Shown here: piece after piece, positions 1 to 50,116 of the stretch
How positions within the stretch are numbered: the first letter of the stretch is position 1
Layout: the number at the start of each line of letters is the position of its first letter
NCBI GenBank assembly: GCA_028285595.1
Contig: JANQOW010000084.1
Span: 1 to 64,000, forward strand
DNA from: Hyphomicrobiales bacterium
GTDB taxonomy: Bacteria; Pseudomonadota; Alphaproteobacteria; Rhizobiales; CAJQND01
Length of the DNA stretch: 64,000 nucleotides
Reading direction: 5' to 3'
Program-made: the position numbers and the translations under genes
The notes under the pieces: model-generated
Databases searched by the model: none
Told to the model about the DNA's origin: nothing
What the model saw: the letters and a program-made list of their open reading frames with translations, nothing else

Positions 1-122
1 TGGCGGAAAGGCGAGAGCGCGGCCTCCCGGATCATGTCGGGCAGGATAGCTGCGGAGACGAACCACAACGAGAGGGCCGCCACTTCCGCAAGCAGCAGAA
101 GAACGATGGAGCGAACCTTCAT
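1..122 (-). CDS. MFS transporter, N-terminal fragment (runs off the window)
   Basis: The first 40 residues of a protein read leftwards from the ATG at 120-122; the rest lies outside the window. They begin MKVRSIVLLLLAEVAALSLW and continue as one hydrophobic helix ending in a short FVSAAILPDM stretch. A first helix with charged N-terminus and an 'E-x-x-A-x-S-x-W-F' pattern is common in major facilitator superfamily transporters. The gene follows the small membrane protein at 151-354 on the same strand by 28 bases, so they may be cotranscribed. No strong Shine-Dalgarno sequence is visible. The substrate cannot be judged from this fragment. Confidence 0.6.
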   Translation of the reverse strand, partial: MKVRSIVLLLLAEVAALSLWFVSAAILPDMIREAALSPFR

Positions 123-5857: not shown

Positions 5858-6252
5858 AAAGTCTCAGCTTTTTGCGGAAAGTTCACAGTCGAAAAAAGGC
5901 ACTTGGAAAATCTGCAGCAAAAGGGTAGTTTAGCTCATCGTTATTGATCGCTCGGCGGTCAGGGCTAGGCCCGACCTCTTTGAAGCGACACCGAAAGATC
6001 CGAAGAACCGATCTGTTGACACATGGTCTGTTTGTGCGCGCGAAAGCGCAGATCATCTGAGGGTTTTTGGTTTGATCAAGGCAATGGAACGGCTGGAGTT
6101 GATACGCCGGGGATAATGCATCTTACGTGTTGACGTGAAATGCTGATTAGGGGAACGACTTCTTCTTAAAGCCCTTTGGGCATCCGGATTGGTGCGGCTT
6201 GCCGGCCGTCTTTTCAAGTTTGGTTTAACATAGCTACTGGACAAAATTGATT
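5858..6252 (+). other. 395-base intergenic region with hairpins, no gene seen
   Basis: The longest gene-free stretch in the window, between prmC and the DUF4167 gene. It holds a terminator-like hairpin at 5957-5980 and a nested structure at 6010-6054: outer arms GATCTG (6010-6015) and CAGATC (6049-6054), inner TGCGC/GCGCA arms (6035-6039 and 6046-6050) around a GCGAAA loop. A TTGACA box lies at 6016-6021 but no convincing -10 box follows at 16-18 bases. I see no protein-coding signal. A small RNA or a long leader of the DUF4167 gene is possible. Confidence 0.5.
5957..5980 (+). terminator. Candidate terminator after prfA-prmC
   Basis: GGTC (5957-5960) and GGGC (5962-5965) pair with GCCC (5969-5972) and GACC (5973-5976), with one bulged A and a TAG loop. 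A short T-rich tail (TCTTT) follows. It lies about 100 bases after the prmC stop. The tail is weak, so this may be an RNA-stabilising hairpin instead. Confidence 0.4.
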
Positions 6253-6912
6253 ATGAGACAGGGGCAGAAGAATAACAGATCTCGCGGACGGGGCCGGCGG
6301 CCACAAAATCCGGTCAACCGGATTTTTGAGAGCAATGGTCCTGATGTAAAGATCCGGGGGAACGCCTCTCACGTGGCCGAAAAGTACAATCAGCTTGCCC
6401 GCGATGCTCTGGTGTCCGGCAACACAGTGACCGCTGAGAACTACTTCCAGCACGCCGAACATTACCAGCGCATCTTGGCCGCCGCTCAGGCTTATAACCA
6501 GCAACAGCAGCAAAACAACGCGCAAGAACGGGCCAACGGCGCCGATGAGAATGCCGCATCGGACAGCCAAGCCGACGACCAGCCCCGCGAAGACAATCGC
6601 GGCCGCCGTCAGCGGCGCAACGACAATCGCGGCGAGGCGCCTGCGAAGGCCGAAGGTGCAGAGAGCTCTGGTGCTGAACCGGAAGCTGCCGGGAACGGTG
6701 CGGCCGAACAACCGGCCGCTGAGGCGCCAGCCGAACAACCGACCGCCGAGGCACCCGCCGAACCGGTCGCTGCCGCGGAGCCCGCTCCTGAAGCTGCGCC
6801 GGCCGCGGAAGAGGCAAGCAGTGAAGCGCCGGCGGAGGAGAAGAAAAAGCCCAGACGCTCCAAACCGCGCAAAAGCGCAGCGGATGACGGCGAATTGGCT
6901 GCAACCGGTTAA
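6253..6912 (+). CDS. DUF4167 domain-containing protein
   Basis: A 219-residue protein with the alphaproteobacterial DUF4167 domain at about residues 1-75: a basic start (MRQGQKNNRSRGRGRR), then VNRIFESNGPDVKIRG, HVAEKYNQLARDA and AENYFQHAEHYQRI. The remaining two thirds is low-complexity, rich in Ala, Pro and Glu, ending in a basic KKKPRRSKPRKS stretch. The basic N-terminus suggests RNA or nucleic-acid binding, but the function is not established. Position between prmC and clpB is conserved in alphaproteobacteria. ATG at 6253 is chosen over an in-frame TTG at 6247. Its TAA stop overlaps the stop of the convergent MOSC gene. Confidence 0.9.
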   Translation: MRQGQKNNRSRGRGRRPQNPVNRIFESNGPDVKIRGNASHVAEKYNQLARDALVSGNTVTAENYFQHAEHYQRILAAAQAYNQQQQQNNAQERANGADENAASDSQADDQPREDNRGRRQRRNDNRGEAPAKAEGAESSGAEPEAAGNGAAEQPAAEAPAEQPTAEAPAEPVAAAEPAPEAAPAAEEASSEAPAEEKKKPRRSKPRKSAADDGELAATG

Positions 6913-41904: not shown

Positions 41905-43164
41905 ATGGATCTGGTTCCACAAAACGCCCATTCGGTGATCACGCGTGTGGTGCGCGAGGAATGGGGGCGGGTGTTGTCTGCCCTCATGTCCTTTTGCCGC
42001 GATCTGGATTTGGCCGAAGACGCGCTGCAAGAGGCTCTGATCGCCGCGCTGAAAAGCTGGCCGGTTGATGGGGTGCCGAAGGTGCCCCGGGCCTGGCTTC
42101 TGGCCACGGCCAAGCGCCGGGCCATCGACCGTATGCGGCGCAGCTCCAACTTCGACAAGAAACGCGATGAATATGAGCTACTCCAATCGCTGGCCGGCGC
42201 GCCGGAGGCCGGCGAAGCAGATCAGCCCATTCCGGACGAGCGCCTGAAGCTGGTCTTCATCTGCTGCCATCCGGCCCTGCCTGAGGAGGCGCGCATCGCG
42301 CTCACCTTGCGCACCGTGTGCGGGCTCAGCACGGGCGAGATTGCCCGGGCCTTCCTGGCGAGTGAGGCCACGATGGCTCAGCGTCTGGTGCGGGCGAAGC
42401 GCAAAATCAAGGCGAAGAACATCCCCTTTCAAATCCCCGACAAAGCCGCTTGGCCGGAGCGTCTGGAGGCGGTTCTCGCGGTGATCTATCTGATCTTCAA
42501 TGAAGGCTATGTGGCCACATCGGGCACAAACCTGATGCGAGATGAGCTCTGCGCAGAGGCGATCCGTCTGTGCGAGCTCCTAAGAACCCTGCTGCCCGGT
42601 GAGCCGGAAATTCAGGGCTTATTGGCCCTGATGCTTCTCTCTGATGCCCGCCGGCCGGCACGGGCCGGATCTGAGGGGGAGCTGATCACTCTGGAGCTAC
42701 AGGACCGGTCTTTGTGGAATCGTACCAAAATCAAGCAAGGCCGGACGCTTTTGGTGGGGGCGTTGGTGAAGGGTGAGGTCGGGCCTTATCAGCTCCAAGC
42801 GGCCATCAGCGCAGTGCATTCGGAAGCCGCTACGTTCCAAGCGACGGATTGGGAAGAAATCTGCCTGCTTTATGAGCGTCTCTATGCGCTTCAGCCTTCC
42901 CCCATCATTGCCTTGAATGCAAGCGTCGCGCGCGCCTTTGCCGAAGGACCGGCACATGGTCTTGCAGCTTTGGAGACATCAGAACTGAAGACGGCTCTGG
43001 AGCGCTATCAGCCCTACCATGTGGCTCGCGCCGACATGCTGGGCCGCAACGGGAACCTTGCTTTGGCGGAGGAGGCGTACCTGACGGCGATCGCCTTAAC
43101 GGACAACGAGAAGGAGCGGGCCCACCTGGAACGTAGGCGGGCCGCACTCAACGGTCTTACTTGA
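41905..43164 (+). CDS. ECF42-type RNA polymerase sigma factor with C-terminal TPR-like extension
   Basis: A 419-residue sigma factor. Region 2 is in about residues 8-80 ([37 protein letters not shown]) and region 4 at about 120-175 ([40 protein letters not shown]). The remaining 240 residues are helical, TPR-like ([28 protein letters not shown]-type segment, [20 protein letters not shown]), a hallmark of the ECF42 group in which the extension is needed for activity in place of an anti-sigma factor. ATG 41905 is preferred over TTG 41893. The stop overlaps the convergent peroxidase stop by 8 bases. Confidence 0.93.
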
Positions 43165-44632
43165 TGCGCTTGGGATCAAACGAGCAGGTCAGGTCATCGC
43201 GGTGGGACACCGATGACCACTCCTCATCCACATAGTCGGCCACATATCCCATTCCGAAGGATTTGTTGTGGTTGCCGAAGCAGGGGACAAAGTCGTGCGC
43301 GTGCCAGATTGAAGAGGGATCGTTCTTCAACAAGCGCATGATCACTGTGGCAACAATGGTCCCGCCCACGTCGCTCAGCTTGCCATTGCCGATTTCCGAG
43401 GCTTCCTGTAGGCAGTAGTACCAGAGCGGGATCTTGTTCAGTCCGGCGTCCTTGGTGGCCTGATCACGGTCGAGGGGCGTGAAGCCCATATTTCCGGCGG
43501 CCATCTGACCTGACGCCAGCTCAAAGCCGAAGCGATCACGATAGATATTGCGGTGGGCCAGAGACTTGGCTTCGGCAGCCGGGATCACCAGATCGCCGTC
43601 GCCCATCACCATATCGTCTTTCACGAAGGGAAGGTCGAACACTTCAGCGGCAATGGATCTGCCCACCGGACGTGCGGTTTGCGGCTCAACCCGAGCACGG
43701 TAGATATCGAAGAAGTAGCGCCAATCGATATTGAACTCCTTGGCTTTCGGCCCGAACGCGGGTAGGCCCAGCTCACCATCGTCCTGCTGGAACAGCCCGA
43801 CCTTCACTTTTTCCGACATCTGATACTTGTTCTGCACGGTGCCGTGGCCAAAGCGATACGCGGCCACGGAAAACTCAACCGGAATGGGAGCCGTCTTATC
43901 GCTGAACGGCTGCGGGAACCTGTGCCGTTTCAACAGCCACAAGACCCGGTTGCACACTTCCGGATCGACCAGTGCCGGCAGGAACTCGTGCAGCACGATC
44001 CATTGATAGTGCCAGCGGGTGAGCAGCTTGGCGAGCTGCTTGGGGTCCTCATGGAGATGTTTGAGTGACTTGTAGATTTTGCCCGGCTTGGAGAGCTTGT
44101 GGAGCAGGATGTTGTAGAACCGGATCCAAACGCCCTGAAGCTGTGACACGATGGCGTTCTCATCATTGCGCGGATCACCGATGAGCGCCACGCCATCGCA
44201 GTTCCGGGGCAAATCGAGTGGGTTGGCCGAATTGCCCATGAGCAAGTACCCCTCATGAGGCTTGGAATAGAGGTGTGGCGTGGCTTCCGGACCGGCGCCG
44301 AAGACGCAATCAAGGTCCAGTCCGGGCGTGCGCACGTTGGTGATCAGTTGATGACGTGTGTTGCGACCAAGCTCGGAGGATACGTCCAGTGTGATGTCAT
44401 GGTCGATGAACTGACCCAGAAAGGTCATCCCGGCCGGCACGTCGCTTTGAATGTCTTGCGTGCTCTTCATGCTCGCCGCCAGCGCTCCTAAAAGTTCACG
44501 CGCTTTGTTGAAGTCAGTGGGGCGAACAATTGGATTGTGTGGCAATAATCTTCCAAAAACAGAGCCATCTGCATCGCACAAATGCATTTGTAATCCATGC
44601 ATGTGGCTCATAAGTCCGTGTTTGTGTGACAT
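43157..44632 (-). CDS. Animal-type heme peroxidase family protein
   Basis: A 491-residue member of the peroxidase-cyclooxygenase superfamily. Distal Gln74 and His78 are in [13 protein letters not shown]; the catalytic Arg155 and Glu158 in [18 protein letters not shown]; the proximal His263 in [12 protein letters not shown]. These are the functional residues of bacterial and animal peroxidases. It probably oxidises halides or phenols with hydrogen peroxide. No signal peptide is visible; the N-terminus is short and His/Met-rich ([17 protein letters not shown]), perhaps metal-binding. The ribosome binding site GAGGA lies 5-9 bases before ATG 44632; the frame is open further upstream in AT-rich DNA. 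It converges on the sigma-factor gene. Confidence 0.92.
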
Positions 44633-44782
44633 GATATCCTCGTAATATTTTATTGATATTTGAGGAGTTCGCATAAAACACAAAGTAGATTTGATTTGTG
44701 TGGCAATATTCACAGATTAATTTATTTTAATTTTGGAAATATGAGAGCGGCACTCGGCGGCTGGATGGGCTACAACACGCCC

Positions 44783-46405: not shown

Positions 46406-47632
46406 TTATCTGGGCATTGCGTCGAAGGCCACACAAATGCGCCGTTCGCTCGATTTGAACGGTATGGTCTGGTGGTACATGTAAGAGGGGAACAGCACCA
46501 TCATGCCCTCATGGGGCTTGACCACCTTGTGGCGGTGCTCGCGTTTGCAGAAAAACTCAGGCGGCGGGCGCCCCACCTCAAAACCGCCGGCCACCGTGCC
46601 CTCTTCGCCATTGGCGTCATCGCTGACTTCGTCCGGGATGCGCACGTAGTAGCAACCGCTCAGATGGCCATCAAAGTGGATGTGCGCATCCTGGTTGCCC
46701 TGTTTGTCGAGCACGGCCGCCCAGGCCACAAGGTCGTAGCGTGCGGGCCTCGCGGCAGCGAACGGGTGATCAGTGTCTGTGTCCAACCCGGCATAGTAGG
46801 TGTCGATGTGCTGCCGGATCACGGTTTCAAGCGCTGCAATCGGCCCCTCGGTCGGCCCCAAAATCTGGTCGGTAATCTTAAGGTCTGGATCGTGATAATG
46901 AGGGGAATGCTCAGGCGGCGTCTTCAGATCCTTGTGGGTCAGAACCGCGTCTTCCAAGGCGGTGTTGAAGGCCGCCATGCTCTCATAGCCGGGCGGCGTG
47001 TCCACATCGTGGGTCTGAACGAAGCGCTCGAAGTTCATCAGCGCGCCGGCGCCTTCAAGCTCGCCGGCCTCTTCCAGCGCCACGGCCTTGAACGACAGCG
47101 CTTCAGTGCTTCCAGGTGCAAGCTGAAGCCAGCGCTCCGCATAGGCGACCGCGCCTTGAGGCTCTCCGGCGGCCAGAAGGGCAGCGCAGATATTGTTGTA
47201 GAGGTTTAAGTTGCCAGGTTCCTTCGAAAGCATCCGCTTGTAATAGGTCACGGCCTCGGAAAACCGGGCGGCCTGATGCAGATTGACAGCCAGTGCATCC
47301 AAGAGGTCCAACCTGTTTCCGTGGCGCTCGGCAAACGGCATCAGGAGCGCAAGCGCACCTTCAAAATCGCCAATCATGGTGTGCAGATTGGCGATGGTGC
47401 GATGGGCATCCAGATTGTCCGGCATCTTCTCTAAGGTGGTTCGACAGAAGGCCAGGTGTTTCTGGGCGTCATCCGTTAGGCCAAGCTGGCCGGCTGCTCT
47501 TGCAGCAAGCATGTGCGCCCGGGGCCAGTCCGGCCGGCCGGCCAGCGCCTTTTGCGCGCCTTCAAGCGCAAGAGCGGGGTTGCCTTGGGCTAAGGCTTGT
47601 TGAATGGGGGCAAGCTCGTTCGACACTGTCAC
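46406..47632 (-). CDS. TPR repeat protein fused to a 2OG-Fe(II) oxygenase domain
   Basis: A 408-residue protein. Residues 1-200 are tetratricopeptide repeats (NPALALEGAQKALAGRPDWP, RAHMLAARAAGQLGLTDDAQ, LYNNICAALLAAGEPQGAVA). Residues 215-408 are a putative 2OG-Fe(II) oxygenase: HxD in AHIHFDGHLSGCYYVRIPDE, GFEVGRPPPEF, and the distal His in FPSYMYHQTIPF with Arg in SSERRICVAFD. TPR-linked oxygenases of this family may hydroxylate a protein or polymer bound by the repeats. Start ATG 47632 is the natural one. It diverges from the membrane protein at 47761. Confidence 0.85.
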   Translation of the reverse strand: MTVSNELAPIQQALAQGNPALALEGAQKALAGRPDWPRAHMLAARAAGQLGLTDDAQKHLAFCRTTLEKMPDNLDAHRTIANLHTMIGDFEGALALLMPFAERHGNRLDLLDALAVNLHQAARFSEAVTYYKRMLSKEPGNLNLYNNICAALLAAGEPQGAVAYAERWLQLAPGSTEALSFKAVALEEAGELEGAGALMNFERFVQTHDVDTPPGYESMAAFNTALEDAVLTHKDLKTPPEHSPHYHDPDLKITDQILGPTEGPIAALETVIRQHIDTYYAGLDTDTDHPFAAARPARYDLVAWAAVLDKQGNQDAHIHFDGHLSGCYYVRIPDEVSDDANGEEGTVAGGFEVGRPPPEFFCKREHRHKVVKPHEGMMVLFPSYMYHQTIPFKSSERRICVAFDAMPR

Positions 47633-47760
47633 GTATTCCTCACCTAGATCACGCAGCGCTCCGATTAACAGGCAATCATCCGGGAAATCAAGCGAGCATA
47701 GCTGTGGTGGCGCTTTTCCGGTAGACTGACCATGACGGTCTTTTGAAGGGGGAAGGCCAT

Positions 47761-49314
47761 ATGACGGGCGTGCTGACCCTCGAACAATGGGTGGTCTATC
47801 TGGTGGTCGCCGCTTTGGTGTTGGCGCCGGTGGCCGCTTTTCTCATTCGCTGGCGCTATAACGCGGCGGTTCGGCGTCTGATGCTGACCAGCGGCGGCGC
47901 TGAGGTTGCCCAGGCACCCGCCGGATCAAGTCCGCCGGAAGACAAGAGCGCGCAGACACTGCAGATTGAGCTTCGCGATGTGCCCGGGCGCGTGGTGCCG
48001 AGCAGCTCCAACGTGCGCTTTGCTCTCAACTATTTCCTGGCCGGCGTGGCCTGTGCGATCGCCATGACCGTGGTGCTGTTCCTTTTGGATAACATGGAGT
48101 TCCTTCCTGTTCGCACCCTCATCATCTGCTGGGTGTACAGCACGCTTGCGGTATTCTCCGCATTGTATGTGGCGGGGATGCGCCATCTCCTCATCGTCCC
48201 GTTGGCTCTGCTCTGGTTGCTGTGCGCTCTGGCTCTGGCGGTTTTTGTGACGGGGGATATTTGGTCGGCGCCGGCGCTCGCGTACCTGGTCCTCGTGCCC
48301 TCTGCGATGGGCCTTTTGCTCGTGAACCGGCACATCGGAACCATTGCGCCCCTTTTGGTGCCGCCCGCCATGTTGGTGGCGGCAGGGGTCTGGCTCTCGC
48401 TTATGGTGCTTGTGAACGGCGAGGCCTACGATTTAGGTCATCTGGTGTGGCCGCTTGCGCTTCTCGTTGCCGGGGCCGGGCTTGCATGCGCATGGCTTTA
48501 CCTTGCCCTCATGGCCCGGCAGTACAGATCAGGCAAAGTCAGTGAACTGATGCTGCAGAACGACGCCTTTTGGCTGCTGGCGTGCGCGAATGTGGCTGTG
48601 AACTACGTGGCGTCCAAGGGTTGGCTGGCGTTGGGCATGATCATTCCGTTCCTGGTTTACCGGCTGGTGCTGGCTCTGACTGCCCGGTTTACGGCTGCGC
48701 CCACCCAACGCCAAAGGTTGCTTTTTCTGAGGGTTTTCGGCTTTCAAAAACGTCAGGCTGAACTGCACCGCGTGGTGCTCAACACCTGGCGCCAGAGCGG
48801 CCCGGTGGCGCTGATCGGCGCGCCGGACAGTGCGCTCGACACCCTCGATCCGCCCGAACTGTTTGCCTTCATCACCGGACGCTTGAAGCAGGTCTTTGTG
48901 CGCGATGCGTCTGACGTTGAAGAAGAACTGGCCCGGCCAGCAACCCGCGCGGCGGACGGGCTTTACCAGGTGGATGATTTCTACTGCTTTGAGGACACCT
49001 GGCAGGCCTCGGTACAGTCGTTGATTGAGGCGAGCGGGCGGGTTGTCATGGACCTGCGCGGGTTCGACCGGCAAAACATGGGCTGTCTCTACGAAATCGG
49101 CGAGCTGTTCCGGCGCTGCACTCTGGAACAGCTTGTGTTTCTCGCCGACAGCACGACGGATCAGGACGTCCTGTGCGAGGCCCTGCGCGATGCGTGGAGT
49201 GAAGCCGGCAGGTCCGGGGCGGGCCCGGAGGCCACGTTGAGCCTCTGGATCATCGATAGCGCGGGCGCGCTGCGCGGCCTGGCGCACCAGCTTGAAAGGC
49301 AGCTTAAAGCTTAA
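47761..49314 (+). CDS. Polytopic membrane protein with uncharacterised C-terminal cytosolic domain
   Basis: A 517-residue protein. One hydrophobic segment at about 8-30, a linker, then about eight more between 90 and 320. A conserved-looking soluble domain follows (about 325-517): LRVFGFQKRQAELHRVVLNT, VALIGAPDSALDTLDPPELF, FYCFEDTWQASVQSLIEASG, VVMDLRGFDRQNMGCLYEIG, LVFLADSTTDQDVL. The DLRG.....C-x-Y-E-I-G pattern recalls Rossmann-like TIR/nucleoside-deoxyribosyltransferase folds, where an acidic residue near E-[IL]-G is catalytic, but this is fold-level inference. I know similar unnamed proteins in proteobacteria. GGAAGG precedes the ATG 47761. Confidence 0.75.
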   Translation: MTGVLTLEQWVVYLVVAALVLAPVAAFLIRWRYNAAVRRLMLTSGGAEVAQAPAGSSPPEDKSAQTLQIELRDVPGRVVPSSSNVRFALNYFLAGVACAIAMTVVLFLLDNMEFLPVRTLIICWVYSTLAVFSALYVAGMRHLLIVPLALLWLLCALALAVFVTGDIWSAPALAYLVLVPSAMGLLLVNRHIGTIAPLLVPPAMLVAAGVWLSLMVLVNGEAYDLGHLVWPLALLVAGAGLACAWLYLALMARQYRSGKVSELMLQNDAFWLLACANVAVNYVASKGWLALGMIIPFLVYRLVLALTARFTAAPTQRQRLLFLRVFGFQKRQAELHRVVLNTWRQSGPVALIGAPDSALDTLDPPELFAFITGRLKQVFVRDASDVEEELARPATRAADGLYQVDDFYCFEDTWQASVQSLIEASGRVVMDLRGFDRQNMGCLYEIGELFRRCTLEQLVFLADSTTDQDVLCEALRDAWSEAGRSGAGPEATLSLWIIDSAGALRGLAHQLERQLKA

Positions 49315-49435
49315 TCCCGGCGTGCGGTTTATGTTGCATAGCAACACAAGCGGATGTATAAGCCCTCGCTGTCCGGCTGGCTGTTCCCCCCTGGAGGAGG
49401 CGCCGGGCTTTTCTATTACTCCAAGGAGCAGGTAA

Positions 49436-50116
49436 ATGGCAGACAACGTTCAGTTGACGGCTGAGCCGCGCGATCGGATAGGCAAGGGGGCCTCCCGGGC
49501 AGTTCGCAAAGCAGGTCGCATTCCCGCCGTGATCTACGGCGACAAACAAGACCCCATCACAGTGTCCCTCACCTATAAGGATGTGCTCGCACAAGTGAAC
49601 ACAGGGACCTTCTTGTCCACCCTGGTTGATGTTGAAGTGGGCGGCGAAAAATACCGCACCATTCCGCGCGACGTTCAGTTTGATCCGGTTCGCGACTTCA
49701 TCATGCACGTGGACTTCCTGCGGCTCGGCAAGGGCGCGCGGGTGAACGTGGAAGTTCAGGTGAACTTCATCAACGAAGATCAATGTGAAGGCCTGCAGCG
49801 CGGCGGCGTGTTGAACGTTGTGCGCTATGCGGTTGAGCTCTCCTGCCCGGCCGAAGCGATCCCGGAAGGCTTGGATGCAGATCTCGCCGGTCTCGACATC
49901 GGTGGCTCCATCCACATTTCCGACATCTCCTTGCCGGAAGGTGTTGAGCCGACGATCACCGACCGTGACTTCACCATTGCCACCATCGCTGCCGCTATGG
50001 CCGAAGAGGTCGAGCCCACGGACGAGGACGAAGAGTTCGAGGGTGTTGAAGGCGCTGAAGGCGCTGAAGACGGCGAGGGCGCTGAAGGCGAAGAAGAGGG
50101 CGGCGGCGAGGAATAG
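49436..50116 (+). CDS. rplY: 50S ribosomal protein L25/general stress protein Ctc
   Basis: A 226-residue L25-type (Ctc) protein that binds 5S rRNA in the large subunit. The N-terminal L25 domain is [39 protein letters not shown] (about 1-95). The C-terminal TL5-like domain follows ([40 protein letters not shown]). The last 30 residues are an acidic Glu/Gly tail, common in alphaproteobacterial L25. It leads the order rplY-pth-ychF. The Shine-Dalgarno AAGGAG precedes the ATG. Confidence 0.97.

Follow-up and report, generated by a model that had tools for sequence, protein, structure and literature searches.

The window, a 64,000-nucleotide stretch of a Hyphomicrobiales contig, carries a gene for a 517-residue protein in which a multi-transmembrane (TM) part is joined to a C-terminal domain with a predicted TIR/deoxyribohydrolase-type fold. 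The family to which it belongs is covered by no Pfam, NCBIfam or PADLOC model. What is new is that a domain of the TIR/DRHyd superclass is paired with a multi-TM anchor, which is unusual, and is found in the neighbourhood of conflict systems. We put at about even the chance that the protein is a membrane-anchored nucleotide or NAD+ N-glycosidase serving as an effector or signal enzyme in bacterial conflict systems; both the catalysis and the immune function are what we infer from the evidence below.

The gene and its product

The gene begins with an ATG at 47761 and ends with a stop codon at 49312-49314 (Table 1). An earlier reading of the letters alone (the sequence-only reading) had placed an open reading frame at 47761-49314 and had picked out the motifs D-T-W, VVMDLRGF and C-x-Y-E-I-G; the frame was confirmed at exactly those coordinates, and the motifs lie at residues 412-414, 428-435 and 442-447, the last as C-L-Y-E-I-G. 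The frame and its protein are not a product of chance: 57 relatives can be aligned from end to end, with identities of 22-31%, and the domain has 14 columns that do not vary among the 70 aligned members. Searches of Pfam and NCBIfam with the full protein returned chance matches only, with no fitting family, and PADLOC matched a model to the family gene in none of 11 members. We found no description of the family in the literature covered; two key papers by the Aravind group (J Bacteriol 2020, NAR 2015) may mention it.

Table 1. Features of the gene and its immediate surroundings (positions in the window; residues of the 517-residue product)
Feature	Position	Strand	Basis or remark
Whole gene, multi-TM protein with C-terminal TIR/DRHyd-like domain, 517 aa	47761..49314	+	
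Purine-rich, ribosome-binding-like stretch AAGGGGGAAGG, just 5' of the ATG at 47761	47746..47756	+	read directly
Membrane part, residues 1-311, eight or nine helices	47761..48693	+	AF2 model, hydropathy, loop charges
Cytosolic loop, residues 46-81, containing beta strand 66-73		+	AF2 model, hydropathy, loop charges
Soluble Rossmann-like domain, about residues 319-516	48715..49308	+	AF2, fold matches
LRVF, residues 323-326, end of first strand	48727..48738	+	L, R and V invariant in 70/70
Asp356	48826..48828	+	invariant in 70/70
GLYQVD, residues 400-405	48958..48975	+	family has GR[YF]R[VI]N
DTW, residues 412-414	48994..49002	+	Trp414 invariant in 70/70
Asp-Leu-Arg, residues 431-433	49051..49059	+	invariant in 70/70
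CLYEIG, residues 442-447 (Glu445 codon 49093-49095)	49084..49101	+	Glu445 invariant in 70/70; proposed catalytic glutamate
TPR + 2OG-Fe(II) oxygenase gene, upstream neighbour	46406..47632	-	left slot border
Ribosomal protein L25 gene (rplY), downstream neighbour	49436..50116	+	right slot border; pth and ychF next

An AF2 model of the full protein, built on an alignment of 58 full-length sequences (pLDDT 88.8, pTM 0.88), has helices at residues 7-46, 82-109, 116-126/128-137, 142-164, 170-188, 196-218, 226-256 and 262-311, the last being a single helix of 50 residues followed by the domain at 320-516. The alternation of loop charges fits nine crossings with the C-terminus in the cytosol, provided that helix 262-311 spans the membrane twice; because the model draws it as one helix, we keep the count at eight or nine. 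The sequence-only reading had put it at about nine.

The soluble domain is predicted to share the TIR/deoxyribohydrolase-type fold

Modelled on its own with 70 domain sequences, the domain reached a pLDDT of 89.3 and a pTM of 0.87. In the full-protein model DSSP assigned it strands at 320-323, 349-353, 427-431, 458-462 and 490-497, alternating with helices. A blind AF2 model of residues 311-517 served as the query for fold searches. Its best VIA-align matches were to DNPH1 (Z 10.9 to 9.7, the top one with an rmsd of 2.8 over 125 residues), to the plant TIR domains of RUN1 (Z 10.0), RPPT (Z 9.4) and RPS4 (Z 9.2) and, on the SLOG side, to PpnN (Z 9.2) and DprA (Z 8.9). Flavodoxin-like quinone reductases also scored up to Z 9.6, so the resemblance is in part one of general Rossmannoid shape and the fold alone is not decisive. 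Foldseek returned no match at E <= 1e-3 and placed ParA and GTPases at the top. The model agrees with the definition of the TIR-DRHyd-SLOG superclass (PMC9503650): a Rossmannoid alpha/beta sandwich of five strands, in which strand C is followed by a conserved polar residue.

Profile comparisons point in the same direction. The commonest Pfam match among the members was Nuc_deoxyrib_tr (PF05014), found over the glutamate-bearing stretch in 22 of 70; none of the 70 reached its cut-off (best E 6e-4, 20.3 bits versus 28.8). When the family profile was compared with that of a partner gene's YELG domain (alignment A4), the score was 25.5, with 100 column-shuffled controls at or below 21.2, and Glu445 fell on the Glu of YELG. 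The A4 profile in turn matched DNPH1/Rcl in the PDB (E 0.0047), with the same YELG Glu in register. DNPH1 is a deoxynucleotide N-hydrolase of the nucleoside deoxyribosyltransferase family. Against alignments of neighbouring TIR (A5), SLOG-like (A6) and patatin (A7) proteins the family profile scored 15-17, the level of chance. PDB sequence searches with A1 and A3 gave nothing but epoxide hydrolase-like matches over a 'TW...DLRG' stretch; these were judged chance resemblances because the fold differs.

The domain thus resembles DNPH1/Rcl and the nucleoside 2-deoxyribosyltransferases (PF05014, DRHyd) in its best fold match, its Y-E-[LI]-G motif and the position of its glutamate; it differs in its identity of only about 15%, its membrane anchor and an extra helical insert between strands 2 and 3 that carries a DGRYRVNEFFC-DTW motif. 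With the plant TIRs the model shares strand C, the loop and helix C with its Glu, and a role in immunity would be a further likeness. In contrast to TIR domains proper, TIR, TIR_2 and ThsB_TIR are absent among the 25 Pfam families listed for the 70 members. These results support the earlier guess of a TIR/deoxyribosyltransferase-like fold, for which structure prediction and a fold search had been suggested as the check: the domain is modelled as a five-stranded TIR/deoxyribohydrolase-type Rossmann fold, with the invariant Glu of C-x-Y-E-I-G in support.

A candidate catalytic glutamate among 14 invariant residues

The residues conserved in 70 of 70 members are Leu323, Arg324, Val325, Gly347, Asp356, Cys409, Trp414, Leu421, Asp431, Leu432, Arg433, Gly441, Glu445 and Leu449. 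In the AF2 model Glu445 comes after strand 427-431, where helix 440-452 begins; TIR and DRHyd enzymes carry their catalytic Glu at this point of the fold. It sits in a YELG-type motif of the DRHyd kind and aligns, through A4, with the YELG Glu of DNPH1, that enzyme's nucleophile. By topology and register, Glu445 probably occupies the position of the DNPH1/TIR catalytic glutamate.

The window copy is divergent. Within residues 400-405, the family's Arg401 (69/70), Arg403 (69/70) and Asn405 (68/70) are replaced in it by Leu, Gln and Asp, and its distance from RVF to DLR is 108 residues, versus 109 in almost every intact copy. The conservation of the two arginines is partly a matter of selection, because the homologue search pattern required GR[YF]R; the members of A1 (an alignment of 11) were found without that pattern, and both arginines are kept in the 10 listed of its 11 other members. 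The copy lies on a long branch (2.01), and its placement in the tree is unsure.

The gene is scattered through several phyla

A full-length search of 41 genomes found the window's own gene and none in the 40 close relatives, and a first scan of wider genome contigs with the full protein gave no match. The view of the gene as an orphan was rejected when domain-only searches recovered relatives. Of 398 genomes in the phylum, five more gave a match, of which one, G219/L007 (E 4.9e-4), was unrelated and was dropped; a gammaproteobacterial-type class reached through G139 gave 8 of 369 genomes. A search with A1 yielded 105 encoding stretches among 109 pattern matches, of which 80 loci were kept. These copies come mostly from Beta- and Gammaproteobacteria, with others in Acidobacteriota, Armatimonadota, Methylomirabilota and a Geobacter; the window's own class has the family gene in 2 of 385 genomes, its own included. 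Phylogenetic spread had been proposed as a check, and the family is indeed scattered through Proteobacteria, Acidobacteriota and other phyla, with the same architecture in nearly all intact copies. No family gene occurred in the viral contigs, plasmids or phages searched.

From the domain set we left out duplicates (L001, L002, L008, L015), broken copies (L012, L034) and L079, leaving 88 domains, or 69 once near-copies were removed. Among the broken copies, L034 6903-8606 has an in-frame stop, and L075 5676-8564, the same as L012, is in two separated pieces.

Relatives often sit beside predicted immune and cell-death genes

In four loci (L066, L067, L085, L094) the gene order is caspase, a CHAT/alpha-beta-hydrolase/TPR-S protein of 1800 residues, an M15-like peptidase, then the family gene; in L067 the caspase falls at the edge of the locus. 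In three others (L041, L064, L076) a patatin gene, a DRHyd-TPR-S gene and, in two of the three, a TPR-S-patatin gene precede the family gene in that order. A TIR gene follows it directly in L076, L092 and L051, and other loci have nSTAND1, SLATT/DUF4231, DUF4062, muramidase or TIR-WD40 genes nearby. Intergenic gaps are often 7 bp, which, with the gene order, indicates operons in L067, L076 and L092. PADLOC models fit single partners in these loci (caspase, phospholipase, TIR) and not the family gene.

The 1800-residue protein of L067 (742-6180) and its like, which combine DUF7379, alpha/beta-hydrolase-like, CHAT and TPR-S parts, are conserved partners in at least 13 loci and have no PADLOC model. 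A SLOG-like gene with a GACGGDILF motif (L064 511-1125 and similar genes) lies near the family gene in eight loci; the one at L084 2059-2646 has no Pfam match. Just upstream of the family gene in L039, gene 5934-6872 (P0003) encodes TM helices and an LRSF/W/G-x-x-x-EL domain. The LRSF, Trp and G-x-x-x-E-L block of this protein aligns with the family domain (hhalign P 0.0014); it looks like a second TM-anchored relative, and differs in having few TM helices only, other loop lengths and no Pfam family.

The association exceeds what is expected from how many such genes the 45 genomes contain in all. Those genomes, reached through 46 of the 80 loci, gave 57 domain matches, or 56 copies once the weak G823:C18 (E 4e-5) was dropped. 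Within 10 kb there was a TPR-S gene in 24 of 56 copies (0.43 expected), a true caspase, counted at E <= 1e-10 only, in 9 of 56 (0.33 expected), and TIR_2 in at least 14 of 56 (1.17 expected; the count is a lower bound, and the expectation uses all 212). Defence-island enrichment had been suggested as a check, and all three kinds of gene are above expectation near the copies. None of the three lies within 15 kb of 28 of the 56 copies, and the window copy is one of these stand-alone genes. Copies with partners are dispersed across the tree, which requires 11 changes, at least 6 of them forced by starred branches; gain or loss of the association has thus happened repeatedly, each time with the same kinds of partner.

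These neighbourhoods bear on the main rival explanation, a nucleotide-gated membrane effector whose domain would bind a partner-made nucleotide signal without cutting it and whose helices would open a pore or disrupt the membrane. The multi-TM part is conserved together with the domain in the 57 full-length relatives, and the TIR and DRHyd-TPR-S genes in the same operons are possible signal makers. Moreover, DrHyd and SLOG domains are described by the Aravind group as ranging from enzymes to non-catalytic nucleotide sensors (PMC9503650). However, the invariance of Glu445 and of the Arg, Asp and Trp residues in 70 of 70 members goes beyond the needs of a binding site, and half of the copies have no signal-making gene nearby; we regard this alternative as rather unlikely.

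The window copy stands alone in a variable slot

The sequence-only reading had remarked that the neighbours do not explain the gene, and they are housekeeping genes: rplY, pth, ychF and then MaoC-like genes downstream, and, upstream beyond the oxygenase gene, a DUF2332 gene, one that is EipA-like below the cut-off and one for a haem peroxidase of animal type (43157-44713, PF03098, E 1e-14). Within about 10 kb there are no caspase, CHAT or TPR-S partners; the TPR-S/caspase/CHAT/patatin/nSTAND conflict loci embed relatives of the gene but not this copy. The immune or stress link that the same reading had drawn thus holds for the family, through neighbours in other genomes, and gains nothing from the window itself.

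A congeneric species matches both flanks, at 73% on the left (to 47529) and 81% on the right (from 49325), but carries about 5.3 kb of other genes between them and lacks the family gene; 47530-49324 is therefore a variable slot. That genome is 86% complete, yet the slot itself is present. By eye, the genes in it are MMPL-type transporter-like and methyltransferase-like. Jointly with the enzyme reading, the chances look about balanced that the window copy is a stand-alone gene, recently acquired or exchanged, in a slot next to rplY.

Elsewhere in the same genome, contig C115 (L102 7925-10487) encodes a DRHyd-type YELG domain fused to TPR-S, with a patatin gene directly after it. In L041, L064 and L076 the same two genes stand ahead of the family gene, whereas on C115 they have no linkage to it. 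TPR-S genes over the cut-off occur without the family gene in 10 of the 41 relatives searched, own genome included, so the co-presence is weak evidence for a split system.

A second rival holds that the protein is no part of immunity: it would regulate nucleotide or envelope metabolism, as a housekeeping or stress function, and conflict loci would have recruited this stand-alone membrane enzyme again and again. It would suit the copies with no tested partner within 15 kb, the recurrence of stand-alone copies within the genus Hydrogenophaga and the position of the window copy beside rplY, pth and ychF. The scattered distribution, with 2 of 385 and 8 of 369 genomes in the two classes, and the absence of the gene from the same slot in a sibling species argue against it, and we consider it unlikely. 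That the family is enzymatic and the window protein a degenerate or repurposed, inactive copy, as the loss of Arg401 and Arg403 (kept by the other 69 aligned members), the long branch and the broken copies among relatives (L012/L075, L034) might suggest, is equally improbable, given an open frame of 517 codons, retention of every presumed catalytic Glu, Asp, Arg and Trp, and an Arg conservation partly forced by the search pattern.

Discussion

In the N-glycosidase reading, which we prefer, eight or nine membrane helices would hold a cytosolic TIR/DRHyd-superclass domain in which Glu445, with Arg324, Asp356 and Asp431/Arg433, would cut the N-glycosidic bond of a nucleotide. NAD+ is the likeliest substrate by our reckoning, and activation may come through the membrane part. 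In many relatives the protein would be one component of multi-gene loci for immunity or programmed death, whose other putative members are TPR-S sensors, caspase/CHAT proteases, patatin lipases and TIR enzymes; any role of the window copy itself is conjectural.

Among the literature covered, the nearest experimental precedent for such a mechanism is DUF4062/Swarozyc. A preprint reports that this domain is distantly similar to TIR and NDT, acts as an NADase and defends against phage in a way that depends on its conserved Glu (PMC13174449). It differs in belonging to another Pfam family, and no multi-TM region is described in the passages covered (PMC13174449). In L042 the family gene has a DUF4062 gene in its vicinity.

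More broadly, we suggest, tentatively and as somewhat doubtful, that this is a family, without a name in Pfam, NCBIfam or PADLOC, of membrane-embedded DRHyd-type NADases or nucleotide hydrolases acting as membrane-localised triggers or executioners of caspase-CHAT-patatin death pathways in Proteobacteria, working also alone, and that it may belong together with the LRSF-type proteins in a wider clan of TM-anchored TIR-like enzymes. In bacteria, plants and animals alike, immunity and cell death depend centrally on TIR-like NADases, of which further branches, DUF4062 among them, are still emerging. The present family would add a branch that joins its enzyme domain to eight or nine membrane helices and is linked repeatedly to caspase, CHAT and patatin genes, and it offers defined residues (Glu445, Asp431, Arg433, Trp414) and ready-made operons for tests. 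With relatives so often beside predicted immune and cell-death genes, it makes a good candidate component of bacterial immunity that has yet to be described.
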